Source of the DNA: Gemmatimonadota bacterium | Lineage (GTDB): Bacteria > Gemmatimonadota > Gemmatimonadetes > Longimicrobiales > Gaopeijiaceae | Length of the DNA: 64,000 nucleotides | NCBI GenBank assembly: GCA_029262115.1 | Contig: JAJCZZ010000049.1 | Coordinates: 124,001-188,000 of the forward strand | Direction of reading: 5' to 3' | Shown here: one piece after another, positions 3,294 to 15,992 of the stretch | Numbering within the stretch: position 1 is the first letter of the stretch | How the letters are laid out: every line of letters starts with the position of its first letter | The notes under the pieces: generated by a model | Seen by the model: the letters and a program-made list of their open reading frames with translations, nothing else | Told to the model about the DNA's origin: nothing | Databases searched by the model: none | Position numbers and translations under genes: made by a program

Positions 3294-4498
3294 CGCTCAC
3301 ATTGCCTGGATCCCTGCGTTCACGCCGCTCGGCGGGTCGTGTGGCGCTCTTCTTCGGATGTGTGGCGGCGGTCGGCTCATCGAGCTTGGAGGCGCAGTCG
3401 CTGTTCAACGGGGTGGGTCTGGGAGTACCCACCGACCCCGTCGACGCGCGCAGCCGGGCGCTCGGGAATATCGGCATTGGTCTGTGGGGCACCGCACTCC
3501 TGCCGGGAGATCCGGCGGCGGCGGCGGGGATCACCGTCCCCACCGCGCTGTTCACCGCGCAGCCGTCCTGGGTGGAGTCGACCCGTGACGGGACGACCGC
3601 CGAGGCGCGGTCGACTCGCTTTCCACTCCTCGGGATCGCCTATCCTGCGTGGAACCTGGGGACGCTCACCTTTAGCTTCGGGTCGTTCCTCGACCAGCGC
3701 TTCAGCGCAGAGCGGGCCGTATCCCTGGAGCTTCAGGACGGCCCTCTCGACGCCACCGACGAGTTCCGCTCCGAGGGCGGCGTCTCCGAGATCCGCCTCG
3801 GCCTCGCGCGACCTCTGACCGGATCCGTGGCTGCGGGCCTGCAGGTGGGGCGCTACAACGGCACACTGACGCGGACGCTCACGCGATCTCTGGACGGAAT
3901 CGACGCCGAGGGTTCGGTGCTCGACTTCTCCGCGAGCGGCCGGTGGGCCTATTCGGGGACCTCCGTGACGGCGGGGGCGTCCATGAACATCGGGACCGTC
4001 GGCCGTGTGGCGGGGAGTGTCACCTGGTCGGGCGACCTTGAAGCGACCCCGTCCGAGTCGACCGAGGCGTCCGGGCGGGCCTACGACCTCCCGTTGCAGA
4101 TCCGGCTCGGTGGGACCGCGGTCCTGGCCCCCGGGTTCGCCGTGACGGCATCGTTTGGGAGTGCTGACTGGACCAGCGTGTCTGCGGGTCTCGGAAATGC
4201 CACCGCCCAGAGCGCTCGGACGTACGGGGCGGGCGTCGAACTCGGTCGCGCGCAGATCCTGGGCCGTAACGCACCTCTTCGCTTCGGCTACCGGCGGTCG
4301 GACCTTCCGTTTGCCTTGGCCGACGGCTCACCTCGTGAGATCGTCTGGTCCGGCGGGTTCGGACTCGGCCTCAGCGAGACCGCCAGCGTGATCCTGGCCG
4401 GCGTCGACCTGGCGCTCGAGCGGGGTACGCGCTCCGGGGGTCTGATCGACGAATCCTTCTGGCGTGCCGCGCTGACGTTGAGGGTGGCTGGGTTCTGA
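3290..4498 (+). CDS. Predicted outer-membrane beta-barrel protein
   Basis: The 402-residue protein has an N-terminal signal sequence ending near SSSLEAQ (about residue 36). It then shows alternating hydrophobic/polar strands with many Gly and aromatic turns, and ends in Phe (RVAGF), the usual last residue of Gram-negative barrels. The N-terminal motif VDARSRALGNIGIG resembles PorV/FadL-like proteins, where an NPA-like plug follows the signal peptide. It overlaps the upstream lipoprotein gene by 4 bp, which suggests that the two work together at the outer membrane. The transported ligand cannot be told. Confidence 0.7.
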   Translation: MTLTLPGSLRSRRSAGRVALFFGCVAAVGSSSLEAQSLFNGVGLGVPTDPVDARSRALGNIGIGLWGTALLPGDPAAAAGITVPTALFTAQPSWVESTRDGTTAEARSTRFPLLGIAYPAWNLGTLTFSFGSFLDQRFSAERAVSLELQDGPLDATDEFRSEGGVSEIRLGLARPLTGSVAAGLQVGRYNGTLTRTLTRSLDGIDAEGSVLDFSASGRWAYSGTSVTAGASMNIGTVGRVAGSVTWSGDLEATPSESTEASGRAYDLPLQIRLGGTAVLAPGFAVTASFGSADWTSVSAGLGNATAQSARTYGAGVELGRAQILGRNAPLRFGYRRSDLPFALADGSPREIVWSGGFGLGLSETASVILAGVDLALERGTRSGGLIDESFWRAALTLRVAGF

Positions 4499-9807: not shown

Positions 9808-10809
9808 ATGCCTGAGAGCCACGTTGTAACCATCTCCCGATTCCTGGTCGATCAGGAGCGGCTCCACCCGGAGGCCACGGGGGCGTTCACCGATTTGCTG
9901 AGCGACATCGCGCTGGCGGCGAAGATGATCGGGCGGGAGGTGAACAAGGCGGGCCTTGTCGAGATCCTCGGGCGTGCGGGGGAAGAGAACGTCCACGGAG
10001 AAGAGGTCCAGAAGCTCGACCTCTACGCGAACGAGGTCATCTTCAAAGCCCTCGACCACACCGGGCGGCTCGCGTGCATGGCGTCGGAGGAGAGCGAGGG
10101 CTTCATCCCCATCCCGGAGAAGTTCCCCACGGGCGACTACGTGCTGTTGTTCGACCCATTGGACGGCTCCAGCAACATTGATGTGAACGTGTCGATCGGG
10201 ACCATCTTCTCGATCCATCGGAAGGTCAGCGAGGGGCCGAGGGGCGACTTGATCGACTGCCTTCAGGCAGGCTGTCGTCAGGTGGCCGCTGGATACGTCC
10301 TCTATGGCTCGTCCACCATGCTCGTCTACACCACGGGCACGGGGGTCCACGGCTTCACGTTGGATCCGTCCATCGGCGAGTTCCTCCTGAGTCACCCGGA
10401 CATGACCATGCCCGAGCCGCCGGCCAAGGTCTACTCGGTGAACGAGTCGTACTACCCCCGCTGGTCGGAGCCCCAGCGGCGGTTCGTCGATCACTTGAAG
10501 GGCGAGGCCGGCTTCAACTCCCGGTATATCGGTTCGTTGGTCGCCGACGTTCACCGAACCCTGTTGACCGGGGGCATCTTCATGTACCCGGCCGATTCGA
10601 AGAGCCCGAACGGAAAGCTCCGGCTCCTGTACGAGGCGTCGCCGCTCGCGATGGTCGTGGAGCAAGCAGGCGGGCGGGCGAGTACCGGGTCACGCCCGAT
10701 CCTCGACATCGAGCCCACGGATCTCCACGAACGCACACCCCTCTACATCGGCTCCGCGGGCTTTGTCGAGCAGGCCGAGCGGGCGCTGGCGGGCGGCTCG
10801 AAAATCTGA
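9808..10809 (+). CDS. fbp: Fructose-1,6-bisphosphatase, class I
   Basis: Hydrolyses fructose-1,6-bisphosphate to fructose-6-phosphate in gluconeogenesis. ATG 9808 gives 333 residues, the usual length. The metal and substrate signature [13 protein letters not shown] is at about 115-127, preceded by the conserved ASEE at 92-95. The C-terminal [20 protein letters not shown] motif carries the active-site lysine and family signature. The frame is open from 9700, but the upstream residues overlap comEC and look noncoding. It is separated from the next gene by a 171-bp regulatory gap. Confidence 0.95.
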
Positions 10810-10894
10810 ATTGTCTCGGTTTTCCGAGGTATTCCAGGTCTTTCTGACGAGGAGAATCTCCTACTCCCACAATCGTTTCCACTGTTTACGCCCC

Positions 10895-10910
10895 TGGCAC
10901 TTTTATTGCA
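10895..10910 (+). promoter_or_regulatory. Near-consensus sigma-54 (-24/-12) promoter
   Basis: The sequence TGGCACTTTTATTGCA matches the RpoN consensus TGGCACG-N4-TTGCA at every conserved position except the G after CAC, and it has the exact 10-bp distance between GG and GC. The predicted start of transcription is near 10921, leaving a leader of about 60 nt that contains the stem GCCCGA/TCGGGC (10934-10947). This is the only intergenic gap before the large secreted protein gene. Sigma-54 control implies a bacterial enhancer-binding activator acting from upstream. Confidence 0.65.
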
Positions 10911-10980
10911 CGGGACGCGACCCAGTAGCATTGTGCCCGAGATCGGGCATGCCATTCACCCTTCATGGGAATCAGGTGAC

Positions 10981-13900
10981 ATGAAGCGTTTCAAGTATTT
11001 GACCCTCGCTGCGCTGGTAGCGTTCGGGGCCTGTGACGACGGAGGCGAGCCAATCGTCGACATCGATGCAAACGGCACCGTTACCGGCTCGGTCACGATC
11101 GAGGGGGTAGCCGCTTCTGGTGTTACCGTAGCGCTTTCGTCCGGCGCCACCACGACGACGGACGCAGCCGGAGCCTACACCTTCACGGGTGTGGACGCCG
11201 GAGCGTACACGGTCAGCATCAGCGGCTTCTCCTCCGATGCCACATTCTCCGCAACCTCGCAGACCGCAACCATCTCCAGTACTGGACAGGTGGTCACGGT
11301 CAACTTCGACGGATCGTTCGTCCGCACCTCCGCCATCATCGGTTCTGTACGGGCCGGCGGCGTTGGCCTGTCGGGCGTGACCGTTTCGATCGGTTCGTCG
11401 ACGACGACGACCGACGCGGACGGCCAGTACTCTTTCAGCGGCCTCCGCGCCGGTGACTACACCGTCGCGTTGTCCGGCTTCGACGCGACCCAGTACTCGT
11501 TCGCCAATGCGTCCATAGACGTGACGGTGGCGGTCGGTGAGTCGCAGGTCGTTTCCTTCTCCGGCCTCCTGTTGAGCAACGCCACGATCCAGGGCTCGCT
11601 CTACATCGACGAGACGCCGAGCAACGACACGTTCGACAACGCCGAGGCCAAGCTGGCCGTGGCGAATGTCACGGTCGGGCTCGAGCGCGCCATCGGCGAC
11701 ACGATCTTCACGGTCACGGACGCCAACGGTGACTACACGTTCACCGACCTCGAGGCGGGCACGTACAAGCTCATCCTCCGGAGCACGGACTCGGACATCC
11801 CGAGCAACGTGGTCTACGGTCAGAACGGTAACGTGGCCCTCGTGGCTCTCGGTGCCGGTCAGACGCAGACGGTCAACTGGCCGTTCGACATCGTCACGCA
11901 GCGGGTCGAAGCGGCCGCCTTCTTCGGAACGGACGCGCAGGTTTCCCTGACCCCCGGCCCGGGCATCAACCCGACGCCTGGCGTGACGCTCGACCTGTAC
12001 GACACCGAGTCCAACGCCACTTCGGGTGGGACCACGGGCCGTCTGGACACCGCGGTGACCGGCGCCGACGGTACGGTCACCTTCCGCTTCGCGCGGTCGG
12101 CCGATCGTAGCCCCGCGGGTGCCACGCCGGACCGCATCGTCTTTGCGCGGTACCGGTCGATCGCCACGGCGGGCAAGACGCTGAACGGCGAGAACATCAT
12201 CGAGATGAAGTGGACCGGTGGTGACTCCACGCTGATCGCGCCGGACACCTTCGATCTGTTGAACAGCGGCATCGTCCTGCGCTTCAAGGCGCAGACGATC
12301 CGCGGTGACAGCCTCGCAGGCTGGAACGCGGCCTTGTACCGCAACGACACGATCATGTCGGCCACGGCCATTCAGTCGACCACCACCAACGCCCAGGGCA
12401 TCGGGACGTTCACGGAGAGCACCGGCCCGGCCGCGCTACCCGACACGTTCCGCATCCGCCTCTCGGGTGCTCAGTCGTTCGCCAACACCCTCGGACACGG
12501 GTGGCGGCAGGCGCCGGACGCTGACGCGCCGGCGTTCAACAGCGGTCGGTATCTGGCGCTGGCCCACGACGGCACGCAGCCTGACACCGTATACCTCGGT
12601 GAAGAGCTCGTGACGTTCACGGACATGCACCTGCTGGCCAACGTTCACCACGAGCGTGACGACTCGACGAGCCTCCCGACCTACACGGGTGGGGACAACA
12701 TCGAGAACATGGACCGCATCCAGGTCCAGCTCTACCGCGTGAACTCGAACGGCTCGCTGACTTCGATCGGCACGGTCCAGCCGTCGATCGATTCCGGCGC
12801 GGTTGTGTTCCTCAACGTGCCGCTCGGTACGTATCGGCTCCGCGCTCGTTCGCTGTTCAACAGCGTGGACCTCCTGAACGACACGTCGTTCACCATCACG
12901 TTGGATGGTGCTTGGAAGGACACGACGTTCGCCCCGCTGGCGGGTAGCGCGGGCAAGTCGACCTTCGCGTTCAAGTACAACAACACGTCGCTGACCGGTC
13001 TCGTCCGGGCTGCCGACGGCACGAACGTGAACGGCGCGACGGTTCGGATTCAGCCGACGGCCGACAACATCCAGCCGAACATCACCGACACCACGGTTAC
13101 GGTGAGCGGTGGGTCGTGGGGCCTCAGCGGCCTGCGCGAGGGTCCGTACATGATCACCGCTTCGGTGGGTGACTCGACGGCCGCCTGGGAGCTCGTGACG
13201 TTCACGGGCTCGGGGAACACGTCCGCCTCCATGGGGATCCGTGACCTCCAGAACAACGGCGACGACGACATCGTGAACTTCCGTGCGGTGCGTCTCGATA
13301 CCGAGATCCGGGGCGTGGTCATCAACGATCGCGACAATGACTTGAACACGATCGATCCTGATGAGGCGCTCGCCGGTGCCGTCCTGAACCTGTACAAGGA
13401 CAACACGGGCACCGCAGTGGTTTCGGCCGACTCGCTCGTTGCGACCGCAACGACGGACGCGGGTGGACAGTACTCGTTCACCGGTCTGCGTGAGGGTCGT
13501 TACATCGTGAAGGCAGTGGCTGGGACGCCGAGTGCCGCGACGGACGTTCTCCGCGGTCTTGGAATCGACACGGCAATCGTGTCGACGGCTGCGACGACCA
13601 CGAACCTGGGTGCGAACAACACACGGCGCGTCGGTACGTTCACGCCGAATCCGCTGCCGCGCTGGAACTACAACACCAGCCACCCGGATCACGGGCACCT
13701 CCCGAACAACTTCACGTTCCTTTACAAGAACGGGACGGCGACCGGTACGATCACGAACGCCGCCGGTGGTGCAGCGATCGCAGGCATGACGGTTTCGCTG
13801 CGTCGCTGTGATAACTCGGTCGGCTCGGCCTCGCCGCCGAACCCGGTGGATCCGGACGGCGCAGACAACATCGCTGGCAACGGCGACGACGTCCGCTGCA

Positions 13901-14100
13901 TCACGTTCCTCGGCACCACGCAGAACGCGGTGACGGATGCCTCGGGTGTCTTCACCTTCTCGAGCTTGATCGAAGGTGTGTACGAAGTAACGCCGCAGCC
14001 GGGTACGGTTGGTGGGTTCACGAACGCGAACCCGTCGGCCAGGCTGTTCCGCATCGTCGGCAACGGCGATGTCGAGACGGGATCGTTCACGGCCAACTGA
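10981..14100 (+). CDS. Very large secreted lipoprotein with repeated CarboxypepD_reg/SdrD-B-like domains
   Basis: ATG 10981, with AGGTG just upstream, gives 1039 residues. The signal peptide ends in lipobox AFGAC (Cys18). The rest is a string of Ig-like beta domains. The unit 'TTTDADGQYSFSGLRAGDYTV' occurs in several variants near residues 53-76, 138-163, 250-274, 820-850 and 985-1010, the hallmark of carboxypeptidase-regulatory-like/SdrD B domains. The composition is Thr-, Asp- and Gly-rich. No catalytic motif is visible. I infer an outer-membrane-anchored structural or adhesive protein. It is monocistronic, between a sigma-54-like promoter and a strong terminator, so its expression is probably controlled separately and may be high. 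Confidence 0.8.
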   Translation: MKRFKYLTLAALVAFGACDDGGEPIVDIDANGTVTGSVTIEGVAASGVTVALSSGATTTTDAAGAYTFTGVDAGAYTVSISGFSSDATFSATSQTATISSTGQVVTVNFDGSFVRTSAIIGSVRAGGVGLSGVTVSIGSSTTTTDADGQYSFSGLRAGDYTVALSGFDATQYSFANASIDVTVAVGESQVVSFSGLLLSNATIQGSLYIDETPSNDTFDNAEAKLAVANVTVGLERAIGDTIFTVTDANGDYTFTDLEAGTYKLILRSTDSDIPSNVVYGQNGNVALVALGAGQTQTVNWPFDIVTQRVEAAAFFGTDAQVSLTPGPGINPTPGVTLDLYDTESNATSGGTTGRLDTAVTGADGTVTFRFARSADRSPAGATPDRIVFARYRSIATAGKTLNGENIIEMKWTGGDSTLIAPDTFDLLNSGIVLRFKAQTIRGDSLAGWNAALYRNDTIMSATAIQSTTTNAQGIGTFTESTGPAALPDTFRIRLSGAQSFANTLGHGWRQAPDADAPAFNSGRYLALAHDGTQPDTVYLGEELVTFTDMHLLANVHHERDDSTSLPTYTGGDNIENMDRIQVQLYRVNSNGSLTSIGTVQPSIDSGAVVFLNVPLGTYRLRARSLFNSVDLLNDTSFTITLDGAWKDTTFAPLAGSAGKSTFAFKYNNTSLTGLVRAADGTNVNGATVRIQPTADNIQPNITDTTVTVSGGSWGLSGLREGPYMITASVGDSTAAWELVTFTGSGNTSASMGIRDLQNNGDDDIVNFRAVRLDTEIRGVVINDRDNDLNTIDPDEALAGAVLNLYKDNTGTAVVSADSLVATATTDAGGQYSFTGLREGRYIVKAVAGTPSAATDVLRGLGIDTAIVSTAATTTNLGANNTRRVGTFTPNPLPRWNYNTSHPDHGHLPNNFTFLYKNGTATGTITNAAGGAAIAGMTVSLRRCDNSVGSASPPNPVDPDGADNIAGNGDDVRCITFLGTTQNAVTDASGVFTFSSLIEGVYEVTPQPGTVGGFTNANPSARLFRIVGNGDVETGSFTAN

Positions 14101-14131
14101 GTTGACCTGATCGATCGGGCCGAAAGGCTCA

Positions 14132-14173
14132 CGCCCCCGTCCGGGTTTTCCCGGGCGGGGGCGTTCTTTTTTG
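14132..14173 (+). terminator. Rho-independent terminator of the large secreted protein gene
   Basis: A 14-bp stem (CGCCCCCGTCCGGG paired with CCCGGGCGGGGGCG, one G-U pair) closes a TTTT loop and is followed by TTCTTTTTT. It starts 32 bp after the stop codon. This is one of the two strongest intrinsic terminators in the window. Confidence 0.93.
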
Positions 14174-14196
14174 TACCTGCTTTCCTATTTTCCACT

Positions 14197-15207
14197 GTGA
14201 CCGACGCAACCGCAGAGTCCGCCTACGTCCGGCGCTACGCCAACCTCCCGGAGCGGGATCCTCGGGCCGGACTGCGTGGTTTCGCGCTGACCGCGCTGGG
14301 CCGGCTCGCCCCGCTGCTCGGGCGGGGACGGCGAGCCCTGGCGCGACCCCGCCTTCAGGTGCTCAACCTCCACCACGTGTTTCCGGACGAAGAAGCCGGC
14401 TTCCGTGCGCTGCTCGAATGGCTCCGTCGGACCGGGCACGATCTGGTGCCGTACGGGGAAGGGGTACGAGCCCTGTCCGAGGGCACGCTGACCCGGCCCT
14501 CCGTCGCGTTCACGTTCGACGACGGCCTTGCCACCTGCGTTCGGGCCGCAGAGATCCTCGAGGAGTTCGGGGCGGTCGGCTGTTGCTTCGTCGTCACGTC
14601 GATGGTCGGTGAGACCGACCCGACACGAGTGGCACGATTCACGGCGGAGCGGATCCATATGCCCCCCGTGAAGTTCCTGAGTTGGCACGACGTCGAGTGG
14701 CTCCTTCGCCGAGGTCATGAAGTCGGCAGCCACACACACGCCCACCTGATGGTGGCGGAGACATCGGAGCAGGCGCTGGCTGAGGACCTGGAGCGCTCTC
14801 GGGAGCTACTGACCGCCCGGTGCGGAGGCGCCTCGCACTTCTCGTGGCCGTACGGGCGCTTCCATCACTTTTCCCGCGCGGGGGCCGAGGCGGTGTTCGC
14901 GGCCGGATTCGACACGTGCGCGTCCGCGGAGCGTGGGGCGCATCCGCCTTCCTCCGGGTCGGACCTCCGCGACCTGTGCATACGGCGCGACCATGCGATC
15001 GCCGCGTGGCCGCTGTCCCACCATCGGTGGTTCATCGGAAACGCGGTCGGGTCCATGGTCCCGGAGAATAGTCGGTGGCCCGCGGACCTTCAGCCACGAA
15101 CGGCCGGGGTCGGGGGCGCCGCGGCCACCGAGATCGACCGGGTGACCGCCACCGATGTAGACGGGACATCGGCCAGGGGTGTCGGCGGGGCGGAGGGCTC
15201 CACGTGA
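14197..15207 (+). CDS. Polysaccharide deacetylase (NodB-like)
   Basis: Member of carbohydrate esterase family 4, which removes N- or O-acetyl groups from glycans. The NodB motifs are visible: VAFTFDDG at about residues 103-110 (metal and catalytic Asp pair) and the metal ligands in GSHTHAH at about 182-188, with FSWPYGRF further on. No signal peptide is seen; the start GTG 14197 lies only 24 bp after the terminator, so a cytoplasmic or membrane-associated role in nucleotide-sugar or lipid-linked glycan synthesis is possible. The last 50 residues are low-complexity. The GTGA overlap with the formyltransferase gene suggests joint action. Confidence 0.82.
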   Translation: MTDATAESAYVRRYANLPERDPRAGLRGFALTALGRLAPLLGRGRRALARPRLQVLNLHHVFPDEEAGFRALLEWLRRTGHDLVPYGEGVRALSEGTLTRPSVAFTFDDGLATCVRAAEILEEFGAVGCCFVVTSMVGETDPTRVARFTAERIHMPPVKFLSWHDVEWLLRRGHEVGSHTHAHLMVAETSEQALAEDLERSRELLTARCGGASHFSWPYGRFHHFSRAGAEAVFAAGFDTCASAERGAHPPSSGSDLRDLCIRRDHAIAAWPLSHHRWFIGNAVGSMVPENSRWPADLQPRTAGVGGAAATEIDRVTATDVDGTSARGVGGAEGST

Positions 15208-15992
15208 GGCTGGTCGTCATGACGCAGCGCACGTACGGTCTGGGAGCGCTGGCACTGCCGCTTCTTGGGGGTGACCCTCGTCTCGATGTGGTGGGCCTCC
15301 TCCACGTTTCGGACGGAGGCGGATCGAGGAGGCCGTGGAGACGCGTGCTCCGCAAGGTCCGGCGGATCGGACCGGTGGGGGCACTCAACGGGGTGCGCAT
15401 GAGACGGTGGTACGGACAGGACCTCGCGCAGGCCCTCGACCTGCGTCCCGTCGATGAGGTGGCGGTTGGTCTGGGGGTGCCCGTAGTACGCGTGCCGGGG
15501 CCGGGGGCGCCCGAAACAGAGCGGGCCTTGCGCGACTGGGGGGCGGATGCCGCGCTCTCCCTGGGCAATGGATACATTCCCGAGCGGGTTTTCTCCGTGC
15601 CGCCCTTGGGGATGGTGAACGTCCACCACGAGTTGCTACCGGACTTTCGCGGCGCCCAGGGTGTGATCTGGCAGCTTCACGAAGGGTCAGCGACCACGGG
15701 CTTCACGATCCACGCCATCGATCGATCGTTGGACACCGGCGCCGTTCTCCTCAGGGAGGAGGTGCCGATCCGGTTCGGTCGCACGCTGGGCGAGACCGTG
15801 ACGACCACGATGGCGGAGTTGTATCGGCGAAGCGCCGACCGGCTCTCGGACGTGCTCGCAAACCTCGAAGATCTGCTCAGGACGTCGCCGCCCCAGGGGC
15901 CGGGTCGGTCCTTTACGACTCCGTCGCTGACTGCCTACCGGCGCATCGTAGAAAACCACACGCGCCTGGCCGGCCTGCGGGGCGGTTCATAG
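15204..15992 (+). CDS. Formyltransferase-family protein (methionyl-tRNA formyltransferase-like fold)
   Basis: GTG 15204 overlaps the deacetylase stop and gives 262 residues. The core NVHHELLPDFRGAQGV carries the catalytic Asn-His...Asp arrangement of N10-formyl-THF-dependent formyltransferases, followed by GFTIHAID..LDTGAVL, the second conserved motif. The N-terminus is not the usual Fmt one and the C-terminal OB domain of Fmt is missing. It is therefore more likely a sugar or small-molecule N-formyltransferase or a hydroxymethyl/formyl transferase of surface-glycan metabolism than Fmt itself. Coupling with a deacetylase (free amine made, then formylated) fits that idea, but this is inference. 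Confidence 0.75.
   Translation: MRLVVMTQRTYGLGALALPLLGGDPRLDVVGLLHVSDGGGSRRPWRRVLRKVRRIGPVGALNGVRMRRWYGQDLAQALDLRPVDEVAVGLGVPVVRVPGPGAPETERALRDWGADAALSLGNGYIPERVFSVPPLGMVNVHHELLPDFRGAQGVIWQLHEGSATTGFTIHAIDRSLDTGAVLLREEVPIRFGRTLGETVTTTMAELYRRSADRLSDVLANLEDLLRTSPPQGPGRSFTTPSLTAYRRIVENHTRLAGLRGGS

Follow-up and report, generated by a model that had tools for sequence, protein, structure and literature searches.

What switches on the gene for a very large secreted lipoprotein in a bacterium of the Gemmatimonadota, a widespread phylum with few cultured members? A first-pass annotation of the 64-kb stretch of DNA analysed here (the window) had placed a sigma-54 promoter in the gap before this gene, which would tie a probable cell-surface fibre or adhesin to an enhancer-binding regulator. 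We examined the proposed promoter in its setting, across its own genome and in a set of 59 genomes. The features of the locus are collected in Table 1.

Table 1 Features of the lipoprotein locus, with positions in the window
Feature	Position	Strand	Remarks
Fructose-1,6-bisphosphatase, class I (fbp), upstream gene	9808..10809	+	start set by eye; PF00316 and PF18913
Putative activator site 1, TCGAAAATCTGA	10798..10809	.	2 mismatches to TCAGAAATCTGA; distance conserved in orthologues
Putative activator site 2, TCGGTTTTCCGA	10816..10827	.	18 bp from site 1
Possible third half-site, CTTTCTGA	10840..10847	.	by eye; weak, included in no count
Sigma-54 promoter (probable)	10895..10910	+	–24 box TGGCAC 10895–10900, N5, –12 box TTGCA 10906–10910
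Predicted transcription start	10921	+	12 nt after the C of the –12 GC; from promoter geometry
Predicted 60-nt 5′ leader	10921..10980	+	inverted repeat TGCCCGAGATCGGGCA; small hairpin before AGGTGA
Large lipoprotein, 1039 aa	10981..14100	+	signal peptide with lipobox (Cys18); CarboxypepD_reg and SdrD_B beta-sandwich repeats
Intrinsic-terminator-like hairpin	14131..14164	+	strong, with T tail; downstream of the lipoprotein stop

The sigma-54 site and its frequency

The first-pass annotation had read a TGGCAC-N5-TTGCA motif with correct spacing in the gap before the gene, and the sequence bears this out: TGGCACTTTTATTGCA, on the + strand, is a full copy of the motif. It lies in the 171-nt gap (10810–10980) between the fbp stop codon and the ATG of the lipoprotein gene, at a motif-to-ATG distance of 86 nt. 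It scores 11/11 against TGGCAC-N5-TTGCW, which we take to be the sigma-54 consensus, and its GG-N10-GC spacing is correct. Even with one mismatch allowed, it was the single TGGCACN5TTGCA match in the window; at that stringency 0.39 matches are expected per window, and at least one occurred in 30 of 100 shuffles.

The accompanying argument that such a motif is unlikely to arise by chance proved weaker than claimed. The own genome (G000, 5.45 Mb) contains 10 matches to TGGCACN5TTGCW versus 8 for the backward pattern, itself an imperfect control; over 59 genomes the counts were 155 versus 184, and with one mismatch allowed the own genome gave 56 versus 120. As the genome-wide counts do not exceed the backward control, we rejected rarity of the motif as proof. 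The significance of the site stems from its place, strand, spacing and conservation, not from its count.

A search for rpoN, suggested along with the original claim, was positive. The own genome carries one rpoN (G000:C39, 213.5 bits, cut-off 22.8) as well as 21 matches to the sigma-54 activator domain (PF00158), 18 of them strong. Since rpoN was found in 58 of the 59 genomes (the exception, G013, is 77% complete), its absence is useless as a test.

Eight of the ten TGGCACN5TTGCW sites in the own genome, that of the lipoprotein gene included, were inspected. Five others stand 66–98 nt before plausible starts of short proteins (48–121 aa) that all contain a hydrophobic stretch close to the N-terminus, which suggests, but does not prove, that many of these sites are real. 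One of the remaining two lies 29 nt before a start, and the other is ambiguous. Two tiny lipoprotein-like genes of 58 and 74 aa (L005, G000:C69:4959; L007, C101:150336) each follow an exact sigma-54 site by 85–98 nt and encode similar protein ends (LVISFDE..LALAFK and LILSFDE..LALTFIR); they may form a small sigma-54-controlled lipoprotein family. Exact sites also occur 66–79 nt before short hydrophobic proteins at L006 (G000:C91:151580), L002 (C5:3505) and L013 (C8:92115), possibly parts of a wider envelope regulon.

The lipoprotein and its neighbours

A longer open reading frame from 10906 is not the gene, because the ATG at 10981, preceded by the ribosome site AGGTGA, opens a signal sequence whose lipobox the orthologues share. 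The lipobox-like start reads MKRFKYLTLAALVAFGAC, and Cys18 is invariant in the five aligned sequences, namely the window protein and four near full-length orthologues that are 45–50% identical to it. Near full-length orthologues were present on three named contigs and partial ones on two, all from metagenome-assembled genomes of Gemmatimonadetes. The domain matches comprise five CarboxypepD_reg stretches (118.7 bits) and four of SdrD_B (PF17210, 120 bits, cut-off 29.7). The AlphaFold model (mean pLDDT 55.7, pTM 0.27) is usable only for about residues 30–315; over about residues 30–305 it matched SdrD, Cna-B, pilin and transthyretin-like carboxypeptidase domains, and model residues 199–306 superimposed on SdrD (4jdz_A) with Z 12.6 and an rmsd of 2.0 over 101 aligned residues. 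A role as a surface fibre or adhesin is plausible from domains and model. A lipid-anchored stalk or coat protein is the most likely reading, although a shared fold does not show function.

Because a terminator-like hairpin follows the stop codon, the gene is probably monocistronic. Directly behind this terminator, a polysaccharide deacetylase and a formyltransferase-like gene (14197–15992) form a pair that is possibly glycan-modifying. The neighbours scanned then continue with purine, phospholipid and housekeeping genes; a PEP-CTERM/XrtA polysaccharide locus was not seen among them. On the upstream side, fbp is the neighbour in several orthologous loci, and its C-terminus was recognized by eye in G001, G008, G011, G018 and G020. 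In the predicted leader, TGCCC...GGGCA forms an inverted repeat right behind the predicted start; it is conserved in L055, L057, L104, L123 and L124. We make no claim for leader hairpins, since the folding z-score was –1.1 versus shuffles and a compensatory change occurred in only 1 of 14 pairs.

Conservation of the promoter at homologous loci

It had also been proposed to look for the same motif before other CarboxypepD_reg proteins. Among relatives the motif was indeed recovered, at 23 of 37 places, whereas the own genome holds no second match to the lipoprotein. The set consisted of 38 places, from relatives and from the own genome, matching the N-terminal part of the protein, with the alignment starting at query residue 1–27; 37 had sufficient DNA upstream, and in G001 the contig with the gene offers only 55 nt. 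Internal repeats were left out, as were weak or edge places starting by residue 27 (L099 at G013:C524, G009:C4, G046:C39 and G054:C65) and L088 (G012:C37), whose start lies beyond the match. L123–L125 were inspected but not added to the 37.

A sense-strand sigma-54 site of at least 9/11 was present in 23 of the 37 upstream regions, of at least 10/11 in 18 and of 11/11 in 7. Spacers of 2, 3, 4, 6, 7 and 8 instead of 5 bases yielded 0, 1, 0, 0, 0 and 2 of 37, and the antisense strand 1 of 37 (none with another choice of start codons). Shuffled upstream regions gave a mean of 0.93 and a maximum of 4 in 200 sets, and 3 of 94 control regions, taken upstream of ORFs at the activator and rpoN loci of the own genome, carried a site. 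Since the 37 loci share ancestry and some are paralogues of each other (G012 contributes six), these counts do not represent independent events. Five lipoprotein paralogues in G012 (L061, L084–L087) each possess a 10/11 site; in the paralogue on C55 an in-frame stop occupies codon 3 of the aligned start.

No good site was found in 14 of the 37 regions. Five of these have an fbp neighbour (G002, G010, G016, G021 and G033); none was seen at the G032 upstream sequence. In SZUA-1190 (L124), the region upstream of the gene at 4001 contains an exact copy of the palindrome described below but TGGCAC-N4-TTGC, one base short, which reflects either a decayed promoter or an assembly error. In G001, a member of the same genus, TGGCACTGAACTTGCC is located on contig C630, the last 55 bases of which are the first 55 of the contig holding the gene.

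A palindrome at a near-fixed distance from the promoter

The upstream regions of the orthologues share a palindrome, TCAGAAATCTGA (consensus TCRGAAATCYGA), which we consider a putative activator (enhancer) site. Site 1 of the window overlaps the fbp stop codon and begins 97 bp before the start of the –24 box. Site 2 is embedded in the palindrome CTCGGTTTTCCGAG at 10815–10828 and deviates from TCAGAAATCTGA by three mismatches, or by one from a set of four variants. Across the 37 upstream regions the best palindrome matches were exact in 5, with one mismatch in 1, two in 4 and three in 8, where shuffled sets predict 0, 0.02, 0.72 and 5.6, respectively; there is some circularity in this comparison, because the palindrome was derived from the same regions.

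The first base of the palindrome was found 95–99 bp upstream of the –24 box in G000, G008, G011, G018, G020, G007 and G029. Second copies, some of them weak (2–3 mismatches), occur 18–20 bp away, corresponding to two helical turns, in G000, G008, G011, G029 and G012; the distance is 36 in G020 and 30 in G007. Both its sequence and its distance are conserved, as for an upstream activator site of a sigma-54 promoter. Together with the conservation of the promoter at homologues, the palindrome strongly supports the original proposal of a sigma-54 promoter before the lipoprotein gene.

A search of 10 genomes returned 20 exact TCRGAAATCYGA palindromes. In eight cases a sigma-54 site scoring 10/11 or more lies 95–109 bp downstream, and all eight precede one of two lipoprotein families, the window type or the second family introduced below. 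At the other 12 the best downstream sigma-54 score was 9, so exact palindromes away from the lipoproteins are probably mostly due to chance. At L100 (G029:C18:58685), the exact palindrome TCGGAAATCCGA is followed by a 9/11 sigma-54 site 129 bp downstream.

A composite module and a second lipoprotein family

Both elements were combined in the pattern AAATCNGA-N75-105-TGGCAN6TTGC. This composite matched once in the 5.45-Mb own genome and 13 times in 12 of the 59 genomes, while its backward control gave no match. Eight of the 13 matches precede lipoproteins of the window type, and three (G017, G018, G030) a second, dissimilar lipoprotein with a start like MKKLxRTALFAGVLAFGVAACGDDV. The G030 representative had no Pfam match and did not resemble the window protein significantly (BLASTP E 0.45). 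One composite match in G005 (L301, G005:C1:3315233) precedes a PRC-barrel protein, and one in G024 (L312, G024:C59:107232) a protein that by eye resembles small heat-shock proteins.

Protein searches revealed the second family in 9 of the 59 genomes. Both elements were present in 6 of the 9 upstream regions that could be read, at 108–111 bp, placing the same module before the second lipoprotein family in six related genomes; the G016 locus was dropped, as its start was not found. An independent test was provided by six second-family loci detected by protein similarity rather than by the pattern: three (G010, G021 and G033) carry both elements, compared with a mean of 0.001 and a maximum of 1 in 1000 shuffles. 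No module was seen at the two G032 loci or in G027.

A candidate activator

The best candidate for the regulator is L038, a response regulator encoded at G000:C79:33487–34893 beside a histidine kinase, in a cassette next to dnaN. It combines a receiver domain (PF00072), a sigma-54 AAA+ domain (PF00158) with a readable GAFTGA loop, and a Fis-type HTH (PF02954), and the neighbouring kinase is of HAMP-HisKA-HATPase architecture; domains and adjoining kinase are those of an NtrC-type two-component activator. The cassette (L298, G000:C79:28943–39443) encodes a lipoprotein-like protein, the kinase, the activator, a secreted coiled-coil protein and a barrel-like protein. The lipoprotein-like, periplasmic coiled-coil-like and outer-membrane-barrel-like assignments were made by eye, and none of these proteins had a Pfam match. 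Judged by length alone, gene order and sizes look alike in G020 and G025.

The case for L038 comes from co-occurrence. Its orthologue (E at most 1e-130) is present in 26 of the 59 genomes, all of the own family. Among the 35 family genomes, 21 have both L038 and the lipoprotein, 5 the activator only, 1 the lipoprotein only and 8 neither (Fisher 4e-4). The lipoprotein-only genome is the 77% complete G013, and two activator-only genomes, G017 and G030, carry the second lipoprotein under the same module. Scored against a strict module before either lipoprotein, 14 genomes have both, 12 the activator only, none the module only and 9 neither, giving Fisher values of 0.005 within the family and 7e-7 over all 59 genomes, with kinship ignored. 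The strict 14 leave out G005 and G026, which fit the two-mismatch palindrome rule and possess L038; G022 and G025 have weaker palindromes. In eight of the 26 L038 genomes (G002, G003, G009, G016, G019, G023, G027, G032) the module was not seen before either lipoprotein; G027 has an 11/11 sigma-54 site lacking the palindrome. Of the nine family genomes that lack L038, G013 alone gave a lipoprotein match; as the DNA upstream of it is missing, its score of no module reflects only the composite search.

In the 10 genomes compared, many of them in short contigs, the lipoprotein gene was never seen next to an activator gene, and no autoregulated activator with the same palindrome was found among the activator upstream regions examined. 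Naming the activators by NCBIfam was uninformative, all falling below cut-off. In three genera an activator gene (L208, G020:C13; L212, G014:C31; L214, G006:C49) has its own upstream sigma-54 site, the identical TGGCACTGGTCTTGCT in each; the own-genome orthologue, L042, lacks such a site within 400 nt.

Alternative explanations

Could the resemblance to a sigma-54 promoter be a chance product of a short, AT-richer gap, with the gene read from a sigma-70 type promoter? The frequency of the bare motif, no higher than that of the backward control, would allow for this. A crude scan of 10700–14400 revealed no sigma-70-like site, both boxes and the 5-base spacer are conserved in relatives, and the composite matches nowhere else in the own genome; the comparison of orthologues in particular argues strongly against chance, and we regard this explanation as very improbable. 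We hold it equally improbable that the palindrome at 10798–10809 is no activator site but merely the conserved coding end of the bisphosphatase (Ser-Glu-Ile-stop), even though TCAGAAATCTGA coincides with the last fbp codons in G001, G008, G011, G018 and G020. In the first G029 copy the palindrome stands after the fbp stop at a similar distance from the promoter, and at the G007 locus and six second-family loci no fbp ends over it (by eye), again at a similar promoter distance. As the palindrome thus occurs outside fbp in G029, G007 and the second family, it is not just a coding relic; moreover, the second copies 18–20 bp away sit after the stop codon.

A more serious contender, to which we assign somewhat less than an even chance, accepts promoter and palindromes as real and assigns them to another activator, either the universal NtrX-like L033, the universal L034 or one that was not retrieved. 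Orthologues of L033 and L034 are present in 12 of 13 other profiled genomes (the exception being G006, with one locus covered), the profile comprising only part of the activators (in G005, 6 of 17 strong ones) and L048 and L291 contributing no protein to it. The co-occurrence statistics for L038 ignore kinship, and G024 has a composite match, before the heat-shock-like gene, in a genome without L038. Set against this are G022 and G026, both with the lipoprotein and a sigma-54 site, whose only full activators are the orthologues of L033, L034 and L038: L033 and L034 also occur in G014 and G024, which have no lipoprotein match, and L038 alone of the three is absent there. Nor do universal regulators account for a module seen in 14 of the 26 genomes with L038 and in none of the 33 without. 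For L038 as the regulator of the module we would put the chances at about even.

Comparison with known systems

The nearest known system is the control of PEP-CTERM proteins by PrsK/PrsR and sigma-54. According to Haft et al. (2006, PMC1569441), these surface-protein genes of Proteobacteria mostly form single-gene units; their sigma-54 site is accompanied upstream by another motif, repeated in some cases, that is interpreted as an activator site. The motif pair precedes 99 of 167 such genes, the spacer from the nearest motif 1 averaging 62.8 nt (32–92), and an NtrC-like regulator with its kinase shares the phylogenetic profile of the system (PMC1569441). Transcription of pepA in Aquincola is reported to depend on RpoN1 (PMC9850573). 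As far as these accounts go, the window locus is alike in its single-gene unit, sigma-54 site, repeated upstream motif and co-occurring kinase and NtrC-like regulator, and similar in spacing, with 67 nt between the end of site 2 and the –24 box and 85 nt between the end of site 1 and that box.

The two systems differ in their targets, which here are lipoproteins with a lipobox, and in phylum. No PEP-CTERM signal was detected in the window protein (Pfam E 0.001; NCBIfam 1e-8 for the whole protein and E 1 for the last 79 residues), which ends in ...VETGSFTAN. The PrsR cut-off (TIGR02915, 502.6 bits) was reached by none of the 16 own-genome activators scanned, a set without L046 and L049, which are incomplete at contig ends; L035 came closest with 411.1 bits, and L038 scored 379.8. 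The palindrome also lacks the TTTACA of motif 1, a comparison limited to the 3′ end of that motif as given in PMC1569441.

On a broader scale, Francke et al. (2011, PMC3162934) associate sigma-54 with genes for polysaccharides, lipoproteins and the envelope in a range of phyla; gemmatimonads are mentioned in their paper once, within the references. The present locus fits this general theme of control over the cell exterior, and the sections of that survey on these genes contain nothing on the promoter, palindrome or protein family of the window. The protein itself resembles MSCRAMM SdrD adhesins and Cna-B pilins in its four SdrD_B beta-sandwich stretches and its fold match. It differs in that the SdrD family model NF012181 gave 40.7 of 2500 bits, far below cut-off, and in being a lipoprotein with no LPXTG anchor visible by eye.

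Conclusions

We consider it highly probable, from conservation and spacing, that 10895–10910 functions as a sigma-54 promoter and that the palindromes serve as its activator sites. Judged by sequence, the enhancer–promoter module is genuine, ordinary in its mechanism and new as a regulon. In the mechanism we propose, a phosphorylated NtrC-type activator, for which L038 with its kinase beside dnaN is the best candidate, would bind one or more copies of the TCRGAAATCYGA palindrome about 97 bp upstream of the –24 box and, by DNA looping, contact RpoN-containing RNA polymerase at the promoter. Transcription would start at about 10921 and yield a single-gene message ending at the hairpin, and the product would be a very large lipoprotein in which beta-sandwich domains are strung together like a stalk.

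One enhancer–promoter cassette before two dissimilar families invites a wider reading, which we put forward tentatively as the less likely side of the balance: a two-component system dedicated to this family of bacteria, encoded in the dnaN cassette, may sense the envelope and switch on interchangeable giant surface lipoproteins. If this is true, each lineage would retain the switch and change the coat. Among the open-access papers listed for sigma-54 or RpoN in Gemmatimonads, there was none on a regulon of this kind. The module described here would be a second case, beside the PEP-CTERM proteins, of large surface proteins under enhancer-dependent sigma-54 control, suggesting that, as a rule, costly surface coats are well served by tight on–off control. 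For the cell surface of the Gemmatimonadota, the promoter, the putative activator site and the candidate regulator together make up a testable regulon.
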